The notes under the pieces are model-generated. The model saw nothing but the letters and a program-made list of their open reading frames with translations, had not been told where the DNA came from and did not search any database. From positions 1 through 64,000 of the forward strand of contig JAMONP010000098.1 of the NCBI GenBank assembly GCA_027065695.1: a stretch of 64,000 nt of DNA, written 5' to 3'. Origin of the DNA: Desulfuromonadales bacterium (GTDB lineage: Bacteria > Desulfobacterota > Desulfuromonadia > Desulfuromonadales > BM103). How positions within the stretch are numbered: the first letter of the stretch is position 1; the number at the start of each line of letters is the position of its first letter. This document shows, piece after piece, positions 3,627-26,697 of the stretch. The position numbers and the translations under genes were made by a program.

Positions 3627-4556
3627 TTTTTCGGCAAGAAGGCACAGAATCTCATACATTATAGTCGCTCCGATCAAAGCCGTATTGCCAAAGGGATCGA
3701 AGGGCGGTGATACTTCAACGACATCTGCACCGACAAGATTCAACCCCCTCAATCCACGAATCAGGCCTTGAGCCTCTAAGGTTGTCAATCCCCCAACCTC
3801 TGGAGTCCCGGTTCCTGGGGCAAAGGCAGGATCAATACTGTCGATATCAAAAGAAACATAGGTCGGCTTGTCACCAACCACCCGCCTCGCCTCAGCAACC
3901 ACTTTTTCAACCCCAAGTTGATTGAACTCCTCTATATATACAATTCGAATGCCGTACCTGGAACCAAACTCCCAACATTCATCTGAATTTGCGGCACCAC
4001 GAATGCCGATCTAAATGGCTCGTTTCGGGTCCAGTAAGCCTTCCTCGACAGCCCTGCGAAACGGTGTCCCATGGCTGTACCTGGAATTCATTTCCTCATC
4101 ACAACAGTCTGTGTGAGCATCAATATGCACCAGGCCGAGAGGACGATCTTTAGCAATGGCCCTCATAATCGGCAAAGTAATCGAGTGATCACCACCGGCG
4201 CTTAATGGCACGATGCCGAAGCGATGAAGGTTCTCATAGAAACCGGTTATGTCAGCATGACTGGCTTCAACATCAAAAATCTGTTTGAAAGGAACATCAC
4301 CGACGTCGGCGATTCTGCACAATTCATACGGATTGATCCGGGTCACATGGTGAATCGTTCGCATCATGCTCGACATGTCTCTTATCTGCCTGGGACCCTG
4401 ACGTGCGCCTGACCTGGCTTCTACGGCGCCGTCATAGGGTACGCCCACCAAGGCAATATCCAGAGCCTTCAGCTCCGTAGCCAATGGCGTTCTCATAAAG
4501 GTAGGGATTCCACAATAACGTGGCTCATTCATGGGGTTGCTGCTCTGCTCCGCCAT
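3627..4556 (-). pseudogene. agmatinase/ureohydrolase family gene, broken by an amber codon and loss of its 3' end
   Basis: Reading from ATG 4556, 181 residues of a ureohydrolase (arginase/agmatinase fold) are clear, including the manganese sites GGDHSITLP and DAHTD. Codon 182 is TAG (complement of 4011-4013) where the family usually has glutamine; the same frame then continues without a break through IGIRGAAN and the second metal motif SFDIDSIDPAFAPGTGTPE to about 3627. Beyond that it has no family resemblance and is the antisense of the HTH stub, so the natural stop is gone. The start lies 9 bp after the ammonia-lyase stop, so the two formed an operon for diamine or guanidino compound breakdown. 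Substrate (agmatine, guanidinobutyrate or another) cannot be fixed from sequence. Confidence 0.8.
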
Positions 4557-18915: not shown

Positions 18916-19818
18916 TCAGGATGAATTCTGAAAACAACCCTCAACCCCCTCAGCATAGCTGAGGGGGGCCAAGCCAAAAGCCTGTACCCAGTCTCTAGTA
19001 TCGCAGACATTCCCTTCGACCAGCATCGTCAACTGATCGTTGGTGATCGGGAAGTGATCGCATCCCTGCATCAACCGTATCATCGGTTTGATTATAAGCA
19101 GCGGCTGGTGTGCTTTGGTCACTTTTTCCTGACCCAGGGCTCGCGCGGTGAGGTCAAGAATTTCGTCATAGCTGTAGCTTTCCCCTCCGCCAAGGTGGTA
19201 GGTTTCGCTGATCGTTTCCGGCATCTCCAGTGCCCTGACAAAACTTGCCGCAACCTGTTGCCGAGCCACCGGTTGCATGCGATATTGTCCGTCACCGATA
19301 ACCGGTACCACAGGTATCCTGCGAATCAGTTCTGCAAGCATGCCGACGAATTCGCTACCCGGCCCAAAAATCACTGAAGGCCGAAAGATGGTCCAGTCCA
19401 AGATGCTGTCACGTATCCGTTCTTCCGCCTGCCACTTGGTGCGATGATACTCAGAACTGCCCCGCTCGCGGGTACAGTTGGAGCTCATATGCAGGAATCG
19501 TTGTACACCATGTTCCTCTGCTGCTGTCAGCATGTTCCCGGTGCCCTCGACATGGATCTTCCTGAAAGTCACACCACGACCGGGAAACTCGCGGATGATG
19601 CCGACTAGGTGAATCACTGCATCGCAACCATTCAGAGCACCGATTAGACTGACGGCATCAGTGACATCGCCAGAATGAATCTCGACATTCTCCGTGACCG
19701 CCAGCTTGCTCTCCGAGCCCTCACGGACTAAAACCCGTACATTATGCCCGGCCGCCACCAATTGTCGACGCACCTCGCTACCCACAAATCCAGTCCCGCC
19801 AGTCAAAAAAACCTTCAT
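18916..19818 (-). CDS. NAD(P)-binding epimerase-like protein (NDUFA9/extended SDR type)
   Basis: A 300-residue protein starting MKVFLTGGTGFVGSEVRRQL, the Rossmann TGxxGxxG motif of extended short-chain dehydrogenases. MSSNCT and YHRTKWQAEE supply the Ser-Tyr-xxx-Lys set (Y-H-R-T-K), and FRPSVIFGPG follows. The C-terminal half is that of the complex I NDUFA9-like branch, used in bacteria for diverse reductase or isomerase roles. An AAGGAAT site precedes the start. It is a single gene, divergent from the hydrogenase operon. Confidence 0.8.
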   Translation of the reverse strand: MKVFLTGGTGFVGSEVRRQLVAAGHNVRVLVREGSESKLAVTENVEIHSGDVTDAVSLIGALNGCDAVIHLVGIIREFPGRGVTFRKIHVEGTGNMLTAAEEHGVQRFLHMSSNCTRERGSSEYHRTKWQAEERIRDSILDWTIFRPSVIFGPGSEFVGMLAELIRRIPVVPVIGDGQYRMQPVARQQVAASFVRALEMPETISETYHLGGGESYSYDEILDLTARALGQEKVTKAHQPLLIIKPMIRLMQGCDHFPITNDQLTMLVEGNVCDTRDWVQAFGLAPLSYAEGVEGCFQNSS

Positions 19819-20177
19819 TGCTTTATGAATTCCTTTTCTCGGTTTTTACCACGAGTCACGAACCGCAAATCAATTCAACTATACCAGCATTAAGCTGCTG
19901 TGAAATTTATGATTTGTTCGCAATATCAACAGAATTAGATATGCTTTATGGGCTGTCGCTAATTGTGTGGTTTTTGTGCAGCTTAAGCGCACAAGAGATC
20001 GGTGTTGGGCAAGGGATTGAAAATTGTTCGTTTTCACTTGACAGAACATCGTTATACCTTTATCAAAGACGAGGTGTGAATTTTCTTAAAAAAACTTTAC
20101 TATCAATCTTAATATGTTGAATTTACTATGTTTGCGCGTTTAATTAAAATTGACACTAGAATTAAGGAGGTCGCTCA
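19819..20177. other. AT-rich leader of the hydrogenase operon
   Basis: 359 bp between the divergent epimerase-like gene and the hydrogenase. It is clearly richer in A and T than its flanks and should hold the hydrogenase promoter. TTGACA occurs near 20038 and again near 20150, but neither has a convincing -10 partner, and no sigma-54 GG-N10-GC pair was found with confidence. Confidence 0.4.
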
Positions 20178-21296
20178 ATGAAAACTGATCTGGATATTGT
20201 CTCCCCTCCGATTCCCGAGGAAATCCTGCAGCGCGTGGAGGCCAAAGGGATCAATCGTCGTGACTTTATCAAATTCTGTACGGCGACGACTGCTGCCCTG
20301 GCCTTACCGGTTAGCTTTATTCCTACCGTTGCCCAAGCGGTCGAGGACAAGCGTCCACCAGTGATCTGGGTTGAATACCAGAGTTGTTCTGGTGACTCGG
20401 AGGCTTTTCTGCGGGCCAACCAGCCCACTGCTGGCGAGCTCATTCTCGATCTGCTCTCGATTGAATACGCCGAAGTGCTCATGGCCGCTGCTGGCCATCA
20501 GGCCGAAGAAGCCAAAAACCAGGCAATGGAAAAATACAAAGGTCAGTATATCCTGATTGTTGAGGGTTCAATACCGACCGGTGCCGGTGGTGGTTACTGC
20601 ACAATTGGCGGTCAAAGTGCTGTGGATGATTGCAAAAAACTGGTACAGAATGCCGCCGCTACCATTTGCGTTGGCTCCTGTTCCTCTTTTGGCGGAATCC
20701 CGGCCGCGGCACCAAATCCAACCAGTGCCGTTTCGGTAGGTAGTCTGGTGCCGGGCGCAGCCATCGTCAACCTGCCCGGCTGTCCTGTTAATGCTGACAA
20801 CCTGACTGCAACCATCGTCCACTTTTTAACCTTTGGTAAGCTACCGGCGGTTGATCGCCTCGGCCGACCGAAATTTGCCTACGGCAAACGCATTCATGAT
20901 AACTGCGAGCGGCGCGGCCATTTCGACGCTGGCCAATACGCCGAATCCTTCGGTGATGATGCCCATCGTCAGGGCCATTGTCTCTATAAGGTCGGTTGCA
21001 AGGGGCCGGAAACTTTCCACAATTGCCCCACCATCCGTTACAACGAAGGCACCTCCTGGCCGATCATGGCCGGACACGGCTGCATCGGTTGTTCGGAACC
21101 GGAGTTCTGGGACACTATGAGCCCCTTCTATCGGCGTCTGCCAAAAGTACCCGGTTTTGGTATCGAGGATACTGCCGACAAGATTGGTATAGGTCTGGCG
21201 GCAGCCACTGCAGTGGCTTTCGGCATCCATGGGGTAGCAAGCTGCTTCCGCAAGGGTGATTCCATGGAAGAAGACAAGACCGGAAAGGAGGGCTAA
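20178..21296 (+). CDS. [NiFe] hydrogenase small subunit, Tat-exported
   Basis: The electron-transfer subunit of a periplasm-facing membrane hydrogenase. AAGGAGG precedes ATG 20178. The Tat signal has NRRDFIKF (Arg27-Arg28) and ends at VAQA near residue 54. The proximal cluster motif, usually CxxC, reads C70-S-G-D73, so the second cysteine is replaced by aspartate; the other proximal ligands appear in VGSCSSFGG and LPGCP. The distal and medial clusters are seen in IHDNCERR, KVGCKGPETFHNCP and HGCIGCSEPEFWD. A hydrophobic C-terminal helix (IGIGLAAATAVAFGIHG) anchors it to the membrane. The gene heads a four-gene operon with its large subunit three bases downstream. Confidence 0.93.
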   Translation: MKTDLDIVSPPIPEEILQRVEAKGINRRDFIKFCTATTAALALPVSFIPTVAQAVEDKRPPVIWVEYQSCSGDSEAFLRANQPTAGELILDLLSIEYAEVLMAAAGHQAEEAKNQAMEKYKGQYILIVEGSIPTGAGGGYCTIGGQSAVDDCKKLVQNAAATICVGSCSSFGGIPAAAPNPTSAVSVGSLVPGAAIVNLPGCPVNADNLTATIVHFLTFGKLPAVDRLGRPKFAYGKRIHDNCERRGHFDAGQYAESFGDDAHRQGHCLYKVGCKGPETFHNCPTIRYNEGTSWPIMAGHGCIGCSEPEFWDTMSPFYRRLPKVPGFGIEDTADKIGIGLAAATAVAFGIHGVASCFRKGDSMEEDKTGKEG

Positions 21297-21299
21297 CCG

Positions 21300-23012
21300 A
21301 TGGCCAAAAGAATTGCCGTTGATCCAATCACCCGTATAGAGGGCCACCTGCGTATCGAAGCAATGATCGAGGGTGGCAAGATAGTTGACGCCTGGAGTTC
21401 TTCCACAGCTTTTCGTGGCATCGAGAAGATTCTCAAAGGCCGCGACCCCCGTGATGCCCATCATTTCACCCAGCGTTTCTGCGGCGTCTGCACCACGGTG
21501 CACTCCATGGCCAGTATTCGTGCCGTGGAAGATGCCCTGGATATCCAGATCCCTGATAATGCCCGCCTGATCCGCAACCTGATCATGGGCATTCAGAACG
21601 TGCAGGATCATGTGATTCACTTCTATCACCTGCATGCTCTTGACTGGGTCGACCTTGTCAGTGCTCTCTCTGCCGATCCGGTAGCGACCGCAAAATTCGC
21701 CCAATCGATCTCCAACTGGCCGAAATCGAGTGCCACTTATTTCAAGGGCATTCAGGACAAATTGGCAGCTTTTGCCGGCACCGGCCGACTCGGCCCCTTC
21801 CAGAATGCTTATTGGGGTCACAGTGCTTATAAGCTTCCTCCGGAAGCCAACCTGATGGCCGTGGCCCATTACCTCGAAGCCCTCGAATGGCAAAAGGATA
21901 TCATCAAGATCCACGCCATTCTCGGCTCTAAAAATCCGCATCCGCAAACCTTCCTGGTTGGCGGCATGTCGATTCCGGTCGATCCGGATAGCCAGAATGC
22001 CATCAACGCCGACAAGATCGCTCACATCCGCAAATTGCTGCGCAAAGCCCGTGCTTTTGTCGAGCAGGTCTATATTCCGGACCTTTTGGCAGTGGCCCCG
22101 GCGTATCTCGACTGGGCCGGTATCGGTGGTGGGGTTGGTAACTACCTCTCCTACGGTGATTTCCCGATGGACAACAGTCCCGGCACCGGTAGCCTTTTCT
22201 TTCCCCGTGGCGTCATTATGGGCAAGGATCTGGCCAATGTCATGGAGATGGACGAGAAGAAGATTACCGAATACGTCACCCACTCCTGGTACGACTACTC
22301 TGGGGGCAACGATAAGGGGCTGCATCCTTACGATGGCGAGACCAATGACAACTACACCGGGCCGAAGCCTCCCTACGAGTTCCTCGACACCGATGGTAAA
22401 TATTCCTGGGTCAAGTCGCCACGTTACATGGACCAACCGATGGAAGTCGGCCCGCTGGCGCGCATCCTGGTCGCTTATGCTTCCGGTGTGAAGGAAGTCG
22501 TGGATACCGTCAATTTCGTTCTCAAAACACTCGGTGCTCCGGCTTCAGCACTCTTTTCGACCCTTGGTCGTACTGCCGCCCGCGGCGTAGATGCCTTGCT
22601 GTTGGCACAGAAGAACGAGCTCTGGCTCGATCAGTTGGCCAATAATATGGGTCGCGGTATCTACGAGACTTTCAATAAAGAAAAGTGGGATCCGGCAACC
22701 TGGCCGAAAGAAGCACAAGGCTTTGGTTACCATGAGGCCCCGCGCGGTGCGCTTGGTCACTTCATCCGCATTGAGAACCAGAAGATCGCCAACTTCCAGG
22801 CCGTGGTTCCTTCAACCTGGAACGCCGGTCCACGCGATCCAGCCGGACAACTGGGGCCATACGAGTCGGCCCTGATCGGCACTCCGATCGCTGATCCAGA
22901 GAAGCCTCTGGAGATATTGCGGACCATCCACTCCTTCGATCCCTGTCTGGCCTGTGCTGTACACGTTATGGACGGTAAAGGCACAGAGATCGTTAAGGTT
23001 CGGGTCCTCTAA
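21300..23012 (+). CDS. [NiFe] hydrogenase large subunit
   Basis: The 570-residue catalytic subunit that binds the NiFe(CN)2CO centre. The two metal-binding cysteine pairs are RFCGVCTTVH (Cys61, Cys64) and DPCLACAVH (Cys549, Cys552). After His555 a 15-residue tail (VMDGKGTEIVKVRVL) remains, the part cut off by the maturation protease once nickel is in place, and that protease is encoded two genes downstream. RIEGHLRIE is the usual N-terminal signature. With the small subunit and cytochrome b it forms a quinone-linked hydrogenase; uptake of H2 is the usual direction for this arrangement. Confidence 0.95.
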   Translation: MAKRIAVDPITRIEGHLRIEAMIEGGKIVDAWSSSTAFRGIEKILKGRDPRDAHHFTQRFCGVCTTVHSMASIRAVEDALDIQIPDNARLIRNLIMGIQNVQDHVIHFYHLHALDWVDLVSALSADPVATAKFAQSISNWPKSSATYFKGIQDKLAAFAGTGRLGPFQNAYWGHSAYKLPPEANLMAVAHYLEALEWQKDIIKIHAILGSKNPHPQTFLVGGMSIPVDPDSQNAINADKIAHIRKLLRKARAFVEQVYIPDLLAVAPAYLDWAGIGGGVGNYLSYGDFPMDNSPGTGSLFFPRGVIMGKDLANVMEMDEKKITEYVTHSWYDYSGGNDKGLHPYDGETNDNYTGPKPPYEFLDTDGKYSWVKSPRYMDQPMEVGPLARILVAYASGVKEVVDTVNFVLKTLGAPASALFSTLGRTAARGVDALLLAQKNELWLDQLANNMGRGIYETFNKEKWDPATWPKEAQGFGYHEAPRGALGHFIRIENQKIANFQAVVPSTWNAGPRDPAGQLGPYESALIGTPIADPEKPLEILRTIHSFDPCLACAVHVMDGKGTEIVKVRVL

Positions 23013-23033
23013 TTAAGGAAGGAGGCGCATACT

Positions 23034-23687
23034 ATGCACGAAATTCATTACGTGTGGCAATGGCCGGTTCGCATCTGCCACTGGATCAACGTGATCTCGA
23101 TCGTCATGCTGTCGATCACCGGTTTTTTCATTGGCCGTCCGTTTATGACAGCACCTGACACCTCACTGTACATCATGGGCTGGGCGCGCATGCTGCACTT
23201 CTCCTTTGCTTATCTTTTTACGGTGTCAGTTGCGGCACGCATCATCTGGATGTTCATAGGCAACGAGCATGCCTCCTGGAGATCGTTTTTCCCATGGTTA
23301 ACCAGAAAAGGGCGTGCGGAGTTTGTTGAAATGCTGCGCTACTATACCTTCACCGGTAAGCATACCTCCCGCGGGATCGGTCACAATCCGGTGGCGGCAA
23401 CTGCCTATTTCGGTATTTTTATCCTCTTTATCTTTCAGATTGTCTCCGGTTTCGCCATCTACGGGCAGTTCGCTCCGGGCGGTCTATGGGATGGAATCCT
23501 CGGCGGGCTCAATGTTCTGGTCGGTAACCAATGGCTGCGCCTGATGCATCACGGTGTCATGTGGCTATTGGTCGGTTTCACCATAAATCATGTCTACAGT
23601 GGCTGGTTGATGGATGTGAAAGAGCGCACTGGGACCATGTCCGGAATCTTCAGTGGTTATCGTTTCTCCGCACGTAAGGACCATTGA
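23034..23687 (+). CDS. hydrogenase cytochrome b subunit
   Basis: A 217-residue integral membrane protein with four hydrophobic helices (about 20-40, 60-80, 130-152, 175-195). Histidines on the helices (CHWINV, LHFSFAY, LMHHGVMW, TINHVYSG) are candidate haem ligands, as in the HyaC/HupC family. It takes electrons from the small subunit and passes them to the quinone pool. A GGAAGGAGG site lies before ATG 23034, and the stop overlaps the next start by four bases. Confidence 0.92.
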   Translation: MHEIHYVWQWPVRICHWINVISIVMLSITGFFIGRPFMTAPDTSLYIMGWARMLHFSFAYLFTVSVAARIIWMFIGNEHASWRSFFPWLTRKGRAEFVEMLRYYTFTGKHTSRGIGHNPVAATAYFGIFILFIFQIVSGFAIYGQFAPGGLWDGILGGLNVLVGNQWLRLMHHGVMWLLVGFTINHVYSGWLMDVKERTGTMSGIFSGYRFSARKDH

Positions 23688-24154
23688 TGTCGATTCTGGT
23701 CCTTGGTCTGGGTAATACAATCATGACAGATGACGGTTTCGGGGTGGAAGTGGTCACAACACTTTCATCCCGTTACCATTTTCAAGGTCCGGTGAAACTG
23801 CTTGATGGCGGCACCCTCGGTCTGGATCTGCTGCCTCACCTGGAAGAGATTGAATCGTTGTTGATTATCGACGCCCTCGATATGCGCGCCGAACCCGGCA
23901 AGATTTTTCGTCTGCAGGGTGAAGAGGTGCCACGGGCGTTTGCCAGTAAGCTTTCAGTCCATCAGATGGGGCTGCAGGATCTGCTCGCCGTCTCTGAGCT
24001 ACAGGGACATGTGCCGCGCAACCTGGTGGTCTGGGGTGTGCAGCCTGAATGCATCGAAATGGGTACAGAATTGACCTCAACGGTAGCTGCAGCTGTTGAG
24101 CCGGTGGTGACCAGCGTGCTGGATGAGTTGCAGAGTTGGGGGGTTCAGTACTAG
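23684..24154 (+). CDS. hydrogenase maturation protease (HyaD/HybD type)
   Basis: A 156-residue endopeptidase that removes the C-terminal tail of the large subunit after nickel insertion. It opens ILVLGLGNTIMTDDGFGVEV; the metal-sensing acidic residue (Asp in TDDG, usually Glu or Asp), a second in IIDALDM and the histidine in VHQMGLQDLL match the three HybD nickel ligands. ATG 23684 overlaps the cytochrome gene stop (ATGA), so translation is coupled. The other maturation genes (hypA-F) are not in this window. Confidence 0.92.
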   Translation: MMSILVLGLGNTIMTDDGFGVEVVTTLSSRYHFQGPVKLLDGGTLGLDLLPHLEEIESLLIIDALDMRAEPGKIFRLQGEEVPRAFASKLSVHQMGLQDLLAVSELQGHVPRNLVVWGVQPECIEMGTELTSTVAAAVEPVVTSVLDELQSWGVQY

Positions 24155-24167
24155 GAGCCTGTCCGAC
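24151..24167 (+). repeat. solo arm of the AGCTTGTCCGAC repeat family
   Basis: CTAGGAGCCTGTCCGAC starts on the stop codon of the hydrogenase protease gene and closely matches the end of the 159-bp palindromic element at 43730-43888 (AGGAGCTTGTCCGAC). No matching right arm was found nearby, so this would be a half element. Confidence 0.45.
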
Positions 24168-24408
24168 GTGGACTTTTGTACTCTTTACCTTACCCTGTAA
24201 GTACAACCCTGAATTTTAGTAAAAAAATCTTTTTTATTCTGACTGAATTTGATAAGGTGCCGCAGTCGCGGCGTTTTTGACTAACGCCATATACTTAATG
24301 TCTCTGCGTCGGTACTTCGTTTCTATGGACCTGTTGATTTTTAGACAAAGACTTCTTATAGCTAACAGCAAGTGTTATAAATACAAATCCCGAGAAGGTT
24401 AATGCCTG

Positions 24409-24439
24409 GCTTGTTATTGAAATATTTTCAGTAACAGGC
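24409..24439. promoter_or_regulatory. 14-bp inverted repeat upstream of pckA
   Basis: GCTTGTTATTGAAA (24409-24422) and TTTCAGTAACAGGC (24426-24439) pair at 12 of 14 positions around a three-base centre, ending 77 bp before the pckA start. No T-run follows, so it looks more like a regulator binding site or a 5'-UTR hairpin than a terminator. The rest of the 362-bp gap before pckA holds a repeat half-arm (24151-24167) and AT-rich sequence. Confidence 0.5.
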
Positions 24440-24516
24440 CGCTTCATTTTTTACATAACTATAGCCAGCACGTACGTGGCAAGGAGAACTTGCCGCAAAC
24501 CCAGGGGAGTCACACC

Positions 24517-26097
24517 ATGCAAAACCTTACCGCTCAGGAACTCGGGCTGAAAAGTGTCGGGGCCATCTATCGTAACCTCGGTTACGAAGAACTGTTTGAG
24601 CATGAGACTAAAAACAGTGAAGGCAAGCTTGCCGAAAATGGCACCATGATGGTAGATACTGGCAAATTCACCGGCCGTTCTCCCAAGGACAAGTATTTTG
24701 TTCACCAGAAGCCCTCTTTTGAAAACCTCGCCTGGGGCAAAATCAATCAGGCTGTGGCTCCCGAGATCTTTGATGAACTCTATACTGAAGTGATTGAGCA
24801 CCTATCCGGCAAGGATCTCTATGTGACGGATGGCTTCTGCGGGGCCAATGAGAAGACCTGCAAATCAACCCGGTTCATCACCGAACTCGCCTGGCAGTCA
24901 CATTTCGTCAAGAACATGTTCATCCGCCCAGCCGAAGACGAACTCGCCGACTTTGCCCCCCAGTTCACTGTCTACAACGCCTGCAATTTGACCAATAAGA
25001 ATTGGGAGAAGCACGGTCTCAATTCTGAAGTCTTTATAGTCTTCGATATTGAGAAGAATGTGGCGATCATCGGTGGCACCTGGTATGGCGGTGAAATGAA
25101 AAAGGGCATCTTCACCATGATGAATTACTGGCTGCCGCTGCAGGGGATTCTCTCCATGCACTGTTCGGCCAATGTCGGAAAAGATGGTGATGTAGCGCTC
25201 TTCTTCGGCCTTTCCGGTACCGGCAAGACCACCCTCTCCACAGACCCCAAGCGTAAGCTGATCGGTGATGACGAGCACGGCTGGGATGATGACGGCATCT
25301 TCAACTTCGAGGGCGGCTGTTATGCCAAGTGCATCAACTTGAGCGCTGAGAATGAGCCAGAGATCTACAAGGCTATCCAACGTAATGCACTGCTGGAGAA
25401 TGTCGTCGCCGACGACAAGGGCGTGATCGACTACGACAGCGATGCCAAAACTGAAAATACCCGGGTTTCCTACCCGATTGATCATATCGACAACCACGAT
25501 GCCAGCCTCAAAGGTGGTCATCCTGAGAACATTATTTTCCTTACCTGTGACGCCTTCGGTGTTTTACCTCCGGTCTCCAAGCTGACCAAAGAGCAGGCGA
25601 TGTACTACTTCCTCTCCGGTTACACTGCCAAGGTTGCCGGGACCGAGCGTGGTGTTACCGAGCCACAGGCGACCTTCTCGGCTTGCTTCGGCGAAGCATT
25701 CCTGCCGTTGCACCCTACGGCTTACGCCAAACTGCTCGGCGAGAAAATGGAGAAACATGATGTCAACGCCTACCTGGTTAACACCGGCTGGGTCGGTGGT
25801 GGTTACGGTGTCGGTAACCGCATGAGCATCAAGGCAACCCGTGCCTGCATCAACGCCATCCTGGATGGCAGCATCAATGATGTTGAATTTGATCAGACCC
25901 GCTGGTTCCGTCTCAATATTCCCAAAACCCTGCCAGGAGTCGATGATCAGTTACTTAATCCCCGCAATGCCTGGGCAGACAAGGACAACTTCGACAATAC
26001 GGCGAATAAACTGGCAGGGATGTTTATTGAGAATTTCAAGAAATACACCAGCGAGAATGATGACTTTGATTATACTCAGGCTGGTCCGCAGGTCTGA
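24517..26097 (+). CDS. pckA: phosphoenolpyruvate carboxykinase (ATP)
   Basis: Converts oxaloacetate and ATP to PEP, CO2 and ADP, the first step of gluconeogenesis from acids. Start taken at ATG 24517 behind GGGGAG rather than an in-frame codon nine residues upstream. The 526-residue product has the PCK P-loop [12 protein letters not shown], the metal loop [22 protein letters not shown] near the N-terminus and [10 protein letters not shown] later, which mark the ATP-dependent family. It is monocistronic, with a terminator just after its stop and a palindrome in its leader. Confidence 0.96.
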
Positions 26098-26214: not shown

Positions 26215-26697
26215 GTGCAACTCGAAATCTTTACAACCGGCGGCACTATCGACAAAGTATATTTCGATGCCAAAAGTACTTTTGAAGTGGGTGAACCACA
26301 AATCCTTGAGGTCCTGCGCGAAGCGAACCTGAGCATTGAGTATCAGGTAACCCCACTGATACGCAAAGACAGTCTTGAGTTGACCAATGAGGATCGGGCC
26401 ATTATCCGCCTGGCAGTAGAGAAATCAATGGCTGAACAGGTTGTCATTACTCACGGCACTGACTCCATGACGGACACAGCCAGGGAACTCATTGGCATCA
26501 GCGGCAAGACTATTGTGCTGACCGGTGCCATGCAGCCAGCCAGGTTTCGTTTCACTGACGCGGTGTTTAATATTGCCAGTGCCATGATGGCGGCACAAAC
26601 CCTGTCTGCTGGGGTTTACATTGCCATGAACGGGCAAATTTTTGACCCATGTAAAACGCGCAAAAATATCGAGTTAAGCCGTTTCGAATGCGCCTGA
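26215..26697 (+). CDS. short asparaginase-family protein
   Basis: A 160-residue protein with GTG start 26215 behind AAGGGGGA. It carries both catalytic threonine motifs of bacterial L-asparaginases: FTTGGTID at the N-terminus and ITHGTDSM (with Thr-Asp) at about residue 78, plus LTGAMQPARF. It ends near residue 160 (KNIELSRFECA), roughly half the length of classic asparaginases, because the C-terminal domain is absent. Short forms of this kind are conserved in proteobacteria, so this is probably whole rather than truncated. It would release ammonia from asparagine if active. Confidence 0.8.
   Translation: MQLEIFTTGGTIDKVYFDAKSTFEVGEPQILEVLREANLSIEYQVTPLIRKDSLELTNEDRAIIRLAVEKSMAEQVVITHGTDSMTDTARELIGISGKTIVLTGAMQPARFRFTDAVFNIASAMMAAQTLSAGVYIAMNGQIFDPCKTRKNIELSRFECA

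Follow-up and report, generated by a model that had tools for sequence, protein, structure and literature searches.

The [NiFe] hydrogenase small subunit encoded in this window (the whole stretch of DNA analysed, 64,000 nucleotides) carries an aspartate where the CxxC motif of the proximal cluster would have its second cysteine. The initial annotation likened this residue to that of the actinobacterial-type enzyme and raised the possibility of oxygen-tolerant hydrogen oxidation in an anaerobe. The locus therefore poses three questions: whether the aspartate is real, whether it sets the enzyme apart, and what it may mean for the cluster and for oxygen tolerance.

The hydrogenase locus and its aspartate

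The operon consists of four genes on the + strand, in the order small subunit, large subunit, cytochrome b and protease. The genes and the sites under discussion are as follows, in window coordinates.

20178..21296, + strand: [NiFe] hydrogenase small subunit, 372 aa, predicted to be Tat-exported (TIGR00391, PF14720, PF01058)
20250..20309, + strand: twin-arginine signal, residues 25-44 (INRRDFIKF...; TIGR01409, 24.4 bits, above the cut-off of 16.7)
20385..20387, + strand: C70, first proximal-cluster ligand (codon TGT; Cys in 107/107 rows and in 258/258 grouped rows)
20394..20396, + strand: D73, at the second proximal Cys place (codon GAC; in the joint alignment, in the column of the second CxxC Cys of HoxK, HyaA and HybO and of the Asp of HofK)
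20679..20681, + strand: C168, proximal-cluster ligand, role by homology (invariant Cys column)
20781..20783, + strand: C202, proximal-cluster ligand, role by homology (Cys column invariant where filled)
21300..23012, + strand: [NiFe] hydrogenase large subunit (PF00374, E 3.4e-235; motifs L1 RFCGVCTTVH and L2 DPCLACAVH, read from the alignment with HoxG, HyaB and HofG)
23034..23687, + strand: Ni/Fe-hydrogenase b-type cytochrome subunit (TIGR02125, 155.4 bits, above the cut-off of 121.5)
23684..24154, + strand: hydrogenase maturation endopeptidase, HyaD/HybD family (TIGR00140, 163.7 bits, above the cut-off of 151.8)

In the profile search the small subunit matches TIGR00391 with an E value of 6e-140 and 466.5 bits (cut-off 179.5), and it is the sole TIGR00391 match in the host genome (3.39 Mb, 108 contigs, 99.95% complete). 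The Tat signal and the cytochrome b gene bear out the earlier description of a Tat-exported, cytochrome b-linked enzyme. A promoter and terminator scan of positions 19700-24700 returned counts close to those of shuffled sequence (4 against a mean of 3.7, and 6 against 5.2). An open frame of 531 aa lies antisense to the hydrogenase genes (20841-22436, - strand) and is taken as a coding-strand shadow rather than a gene. Elsewhere in the window, an arginase-family gene (PF00491; 4556-3306, - strand) is broken by one in-frame TAG at 4011-4013, past which the reading frame resumes. A lone asparaginase N-terminal domain of 160 aa (PF00710) is found at 26215-26697; the usual asparaginase is longer. 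The IS200-like (Y1) transposase ORF at 582-1538 also matches the DnaA C-terminal helix-turn-helix weakly, with a score under the Pfam cut-off.

The aspartate at the second cysteine place is an observation, and the same holds for the other residues, the order of the genes, the family assignment and the conservation described here. The site reads VIWVEYQSC70SGD73SEAFLRA, with codons 70-73 (20385-20396) specifying Cys-Ser-Gly-Asp, and both the codons and the joint alignment confirm C70-S-G-D73 at the proximal CxxC; the range first given, 20384-20398, covers these codons with an offset of one or two bases. The likeness to the actinobacterial-type enzyme also holds, D73 aligning on the Asp of HofK. 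Over 351 residues this HofK sequence, taken from plasmid pHG1, matches PDB chain 5aa5_A without a difference; the plasmid gene table labels its gene (L101:4963-6018) 'hydrogenase expression protein HypE'. For wider comparison, open frames of less than 230 aa were dropped, which reduced 268 matches to 261 rows besides the query, and three rows (HofK, a Streptomyces copy and a second Sulfurovum copy) were set aside from the resulting 258-row grouping. The remaining ten ligands of the query are intact: C70, C168 and C202 of the proximal cluster, H240, C243, C268 and C274 of the distal cluster, and C283, C302 and C305 of the medial cluster, roles which we take to be those of solved group 1 enzymes. 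Their columns are invariant where filled among the 258 grouped rows, with the exception of one row at H240.

Distribution and class of the enzyme

How widespread Asp is among small subunits had been put forward as a check, and the residue proves to be common. In the host family, a small-subunit match is present in 21/22 genomes and an Asp-type small subunit in 20/22; nine Cys rows from this search are extra copies in those same genomes. In the host class, 194/244 genomes have a match. The 70 loci examined among the class-level best matches comprise 64 Asp, 6 Asn and 0 Cys; since the ranking followed similarity to the query, other groups are under-seen in this sample. A pattern scan of 395 genomes of the phylum, which also returns chance matches and is not usable as a rate, includes among the matches listed Asp copies in further families beside many Cys copies. 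An Asp-demanding pattern scan of named genomes gave at least 118 loci; among the matches listed are Desulfuromonadales, Geobacteraceae, Nitrospirota, Deferribacterota, Chloroflexota, Acidobacteriota and Actinomycetota, the last including Frankia, Parafrankia and Kineosporia. These 118 loci yielded 114 usable rows, 113 with Asp and one that was too short for a call. In the total set, near-copies and repeats of the same gene included, Asp occurs in 214/262 rows, a share that is no frequency because the 118 loci came from a pattern demanding Asp.

Phylogenetic trees place the query in a single large clade. Seven short rows of the 261 were dropped and the rest reduced to 144 representatives at 90% identity; a second set of 60 rows was hand-picked from these. 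With column 73 excluded, the clade contains 114 of the 144 rows (106 Asp, 7 Asn and 1 Cys) with an SH-aLRT of 98, and the same clade is recovered with a mixture model on the 60 rows, again with an SH-aLRT of 98. Both trees are of the 'quick' type, with several long branches flagged. The clade brings the query together with copies from Geobacteraceae, Deferribacterota, Frankiaceae and Chloroflexota. The aspartate is the normal state of this clade, and the swap is the rule within its enzyme group, which sets aside any view of it as peculiar to the query enzyme. Being ordinary for its group, the residue gives the locus no claim to special status.

Sequence comparison indicates that the enzyme is very probably a periplasmic uptake hydrogenase of the Hya type (HydDB group 1f), anchored in the membrane and carrying a 3Cys-1Asp proximal cluster. 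The label 'group 1f' rests on the wording of published papers together with the clade membership described above. For group 1f the residue replacing the second proximal Cys is given as Asp or Asn (PMC5364354), and D73 agrees with this. The group 1f operon of small subunit, large subunit, cytochrome b and protease, as described in PMC6896113, is also that of the query. The same order occurs in 64/79 Asp rows having at least 5 kb downstream, and in 5/8 Asn rows. The same paper names the Deferribacter group 1f proteins HyoS, HyoL and HyoE, with a protease, and calls group 1f polyphyletic. Geobacter Hya and Deferribacter Hyo have in common with the query the Asp/Asn, the Tat signal, the b-type cytochrome, the gene order and the clade, and nothing was found that sets the query copy apart from them. 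The Hya of G. sulfurreducens is a four-gene operon, GSU0120-0123 (PMC7894505); that species also has Hyb, whereas the host has one TIGR00391 small subunit.

The trait itself is already known. In PMC4070099 'G. metalloreducens' is listed with Asp for Cys at proximal position 2, each of the listed substitutions being seen in several members, and the matching C81D and C81N substitutions in the engineered Alteromonas enzyme are reported as functional and active. Since Hyb is, according to PMC7894505, the only G. sulfurreducens hydrogenase missing from G. metallireducens, Hya is the probable identity of this Asp copy. The residue had thus been reported for Geobacter (PMC4070099) and for group 1f (PMC5364354), and by 2016 the observation and the question that it raises had both been published.

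Two other group 1 classes resemble the query in part. The group 1h enzyme of Cupriavidus necator (HofK/HofG, PDB 5AA5) has Asp at the same column, a mark of group 1h that the query shares. However, group 1h is also characterised by the L1 motif TSRICGICGDNH and by the lack of a Tat signal and a C-terminal anchor helix (PMC5364354); HofG reads RICGICGDNH where the query reads RFCGVCTTVH, and the query has a Tat signal. Group 1d enzymes (HoxK, HyaA) are among the best PDB matches of the query, and the query gene order is that of the hox operon of pHG1. In contrast to group 1d, the query has Asp for the second CxxC cysteine and glycine (G72 and G173) in place of the two extra cysteines of the [4Fe-3S] cluster.

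Electron path and oxygen tolerance

We infer iron ligation by D73 from homology, and with it a scheme of cluster types, electron path and physiology. The large subunit would split H2 at its [NiFe] site, and electrons would pass to a proximal [4Fe-4S] cluster with C70, C168, C202 and the D73 carboxylate as ligands. From there they may travel through the medial [3Fe-4S] cluster (C283, C302, C305) and the distal [4Fe-4S] cluster (H240, C243, C268, C274), and reach the quinone pool by way of the b-type cytochrome. The protease would trim the large subunit after nickel insertion.

The question of oxygen tolerance raised by the aspartate is fair, although not new. The Asp might confer oxygen tolerance through the chemistry of the actinobacterial-type enzyme, with the host oxidising H2 in air-exposed water. 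In favour of this, D73 falls on the same column as the HofK Asp, and Asp copies occur in records of Frankia, Parafrankia, Kineosporia and Nitrospira, which are aerobic genera. The Hya of G. sulfurreducens is linked to oxidative-stress defence, reportedly in a 2012 study by Tremblay and Lovley and also in further papers, which would count for tolerance as well. A cbb3-type oxidase subunit I in the host genome points the same way (516 bits on the partial stretch scanned, against the TIGR00780 curated cut-off of 583). This gene weakens the premise that the host is an anaerobe; what stands on the side of that premise is that cytochrome bd, looked for in the host genome, was not found. The Asp of group 1h has been linked to oxygen tolerance (PMC5364354), and PMC6776052 has group 1f mediating aerobic H2 oxidation, which in Acidobacterium ailaaui goes down to sub-atmospheric levels.

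Other points argue against such tolerance or are neutral, the failure to find cytochrome bd among them. HofK is distant in sequence (96.8 bits, where the best PDB match scores 333.3), and the two extra cysteines of group 1d are absent. A purified group 1h enzyme 'seems impeded by oxygen' without H2, in the words of PMC7174314. Geobacter Hya and Hyb are both reported in oxidative-stress protection (PMC10582990), and a Geobacterales small subunit taken for the Hyb type (L273) has Cys. Oxygen tolerance through the Asp is possible on this evidence, if rather doubtful. In the papers searched, no group 1f enzyme was found with a structure, spectra or an oxygen assay, nor any purified member with oxygen data. 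Group 1f would make a fair test bed. Metal- and sulfur-reducing bacteria commonly carry it, as do some aerobes, and its fourth proximal ligand is Asp or Asn.

Exchange at position 73

On the 144-row tree a minimum of ten state changes is required, and Asn arises several times, mainly in Geobacterales. Asn replaces Asp in the close relatives L078, L080, L091, L093, L096 and L099 (all Geobacterales), and in L118 and L105:3812; genome G071 has both states, Asp in L087 and Asn in L099. The single Cys row of the clade, L264 (G296:C192), sits within the Asp clade beside an Anaerolineae Asp row, and its Cys is probably a return to that state. In the large subunit of L264, NPHL stands in place of the NPHP found in the clade's other aligned copies. 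HofK and the Streptomyces copy fall apart from the Asp clade in both trees, and a tree constrained to hold every Asp and Asn row in one group is not rejected (p-AU 0.2, with a log-likelihood lower by 20.3). The placement in the trees suggests that Asp likely arose in parallel in HofK and in the query clade.

These exchanges allow a more speculative reading, in which group 1f carries a natural proximal-cluster switch, with repeated alternation of Asp and Asn among close Geobacterales relatives, Cys regained at least once, and [4Fe-4S] clusters in the Asp copies against [3Fe-4S] clusters in the Asn copies, as in Huc. The codons for Asn (AAY) and Asp (GAY) are one base apart. We regard the switch as unlikely; if it were true, an Asp/Asn swap would retune the potential of the enzyme and its O2 response, and natural Asp/Asn pairs would be matched material for testing the role of the fourth ligand. 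The repeated switching among close Geobacterales relatives, set against the Asn-bearing HucS, is the fresh point here, and a small one.

Comparison with Huc (group 2a; PDB 7UUR, 7UTD) also bears on whether D73 binds iron at all. Both enzymes are non-cysteine at the same motif position, the HucS motif reading C-S-G-N where the query has Asp. The Asp could stand without binding iron, leaving a three-cysteine [3Fe-4S] proximal cluster; Asn stands for Asp in close relatives, which would fit, although Asp is in general the better ligand of the two. Huc, with its Asn, is assigned three [3Fe-4S] clusters in PMC10017518, while in the Ralstonia group 1h enzyme Asp is the fourth [4Fe-4S] ligand (PMC5364354). 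Asp is moreover kept in 212/220 non-Cys rows, though the Asp-demanding pattern, the source of 118 of the loci, biases this set towards Asp. Taken together, a three-cysteine cluster is improbable, and ligation by D73 is the preferred reading.

A different cysteine as the fourth ligand, which the initial annotation had considered, finds no sequence support in the alignment columns, since the other Cys columns do not track Asp. The non-ligand cysteines of the query are at positions 34, 141, 152, 164 and 356, and as a group they do not follow the aspartate. C141 is Cys in 178/212 Asp rows and also in 21/37 filled Cys rows, C164 in 47/212 Asp rows and 15/38 Cys rows, C152 in 51/212 Asp rows, and C356 in 49/192 filled Asp rows. 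Columns 142 and 156 were tried as substitutes, with Cys in 37% and 58% of the Asp rows against 0% and 21% of the Cys rows; they were rejected as neither is Cys in the query and neither is general. Among the 258 aligned rows no conserved replacement cysteine was found. A sequencing error, or another cysteine filling the fourth place, can be dismissed almost entirely: D73 is no single read error because the Cys (TGY) and Asp (GAY) codons differ by two bases and Asp is conserved in close relatives, in the host family and further afield, and no other Cys column tracks it.

Two residues do accompany the non-cysteine state. E66 is present in 215/220 and H281 in 193/220 Asp/Asn rows, and both are rare among Cys rows; E66 is not strictly required, because five Asp rows carry His at this position.
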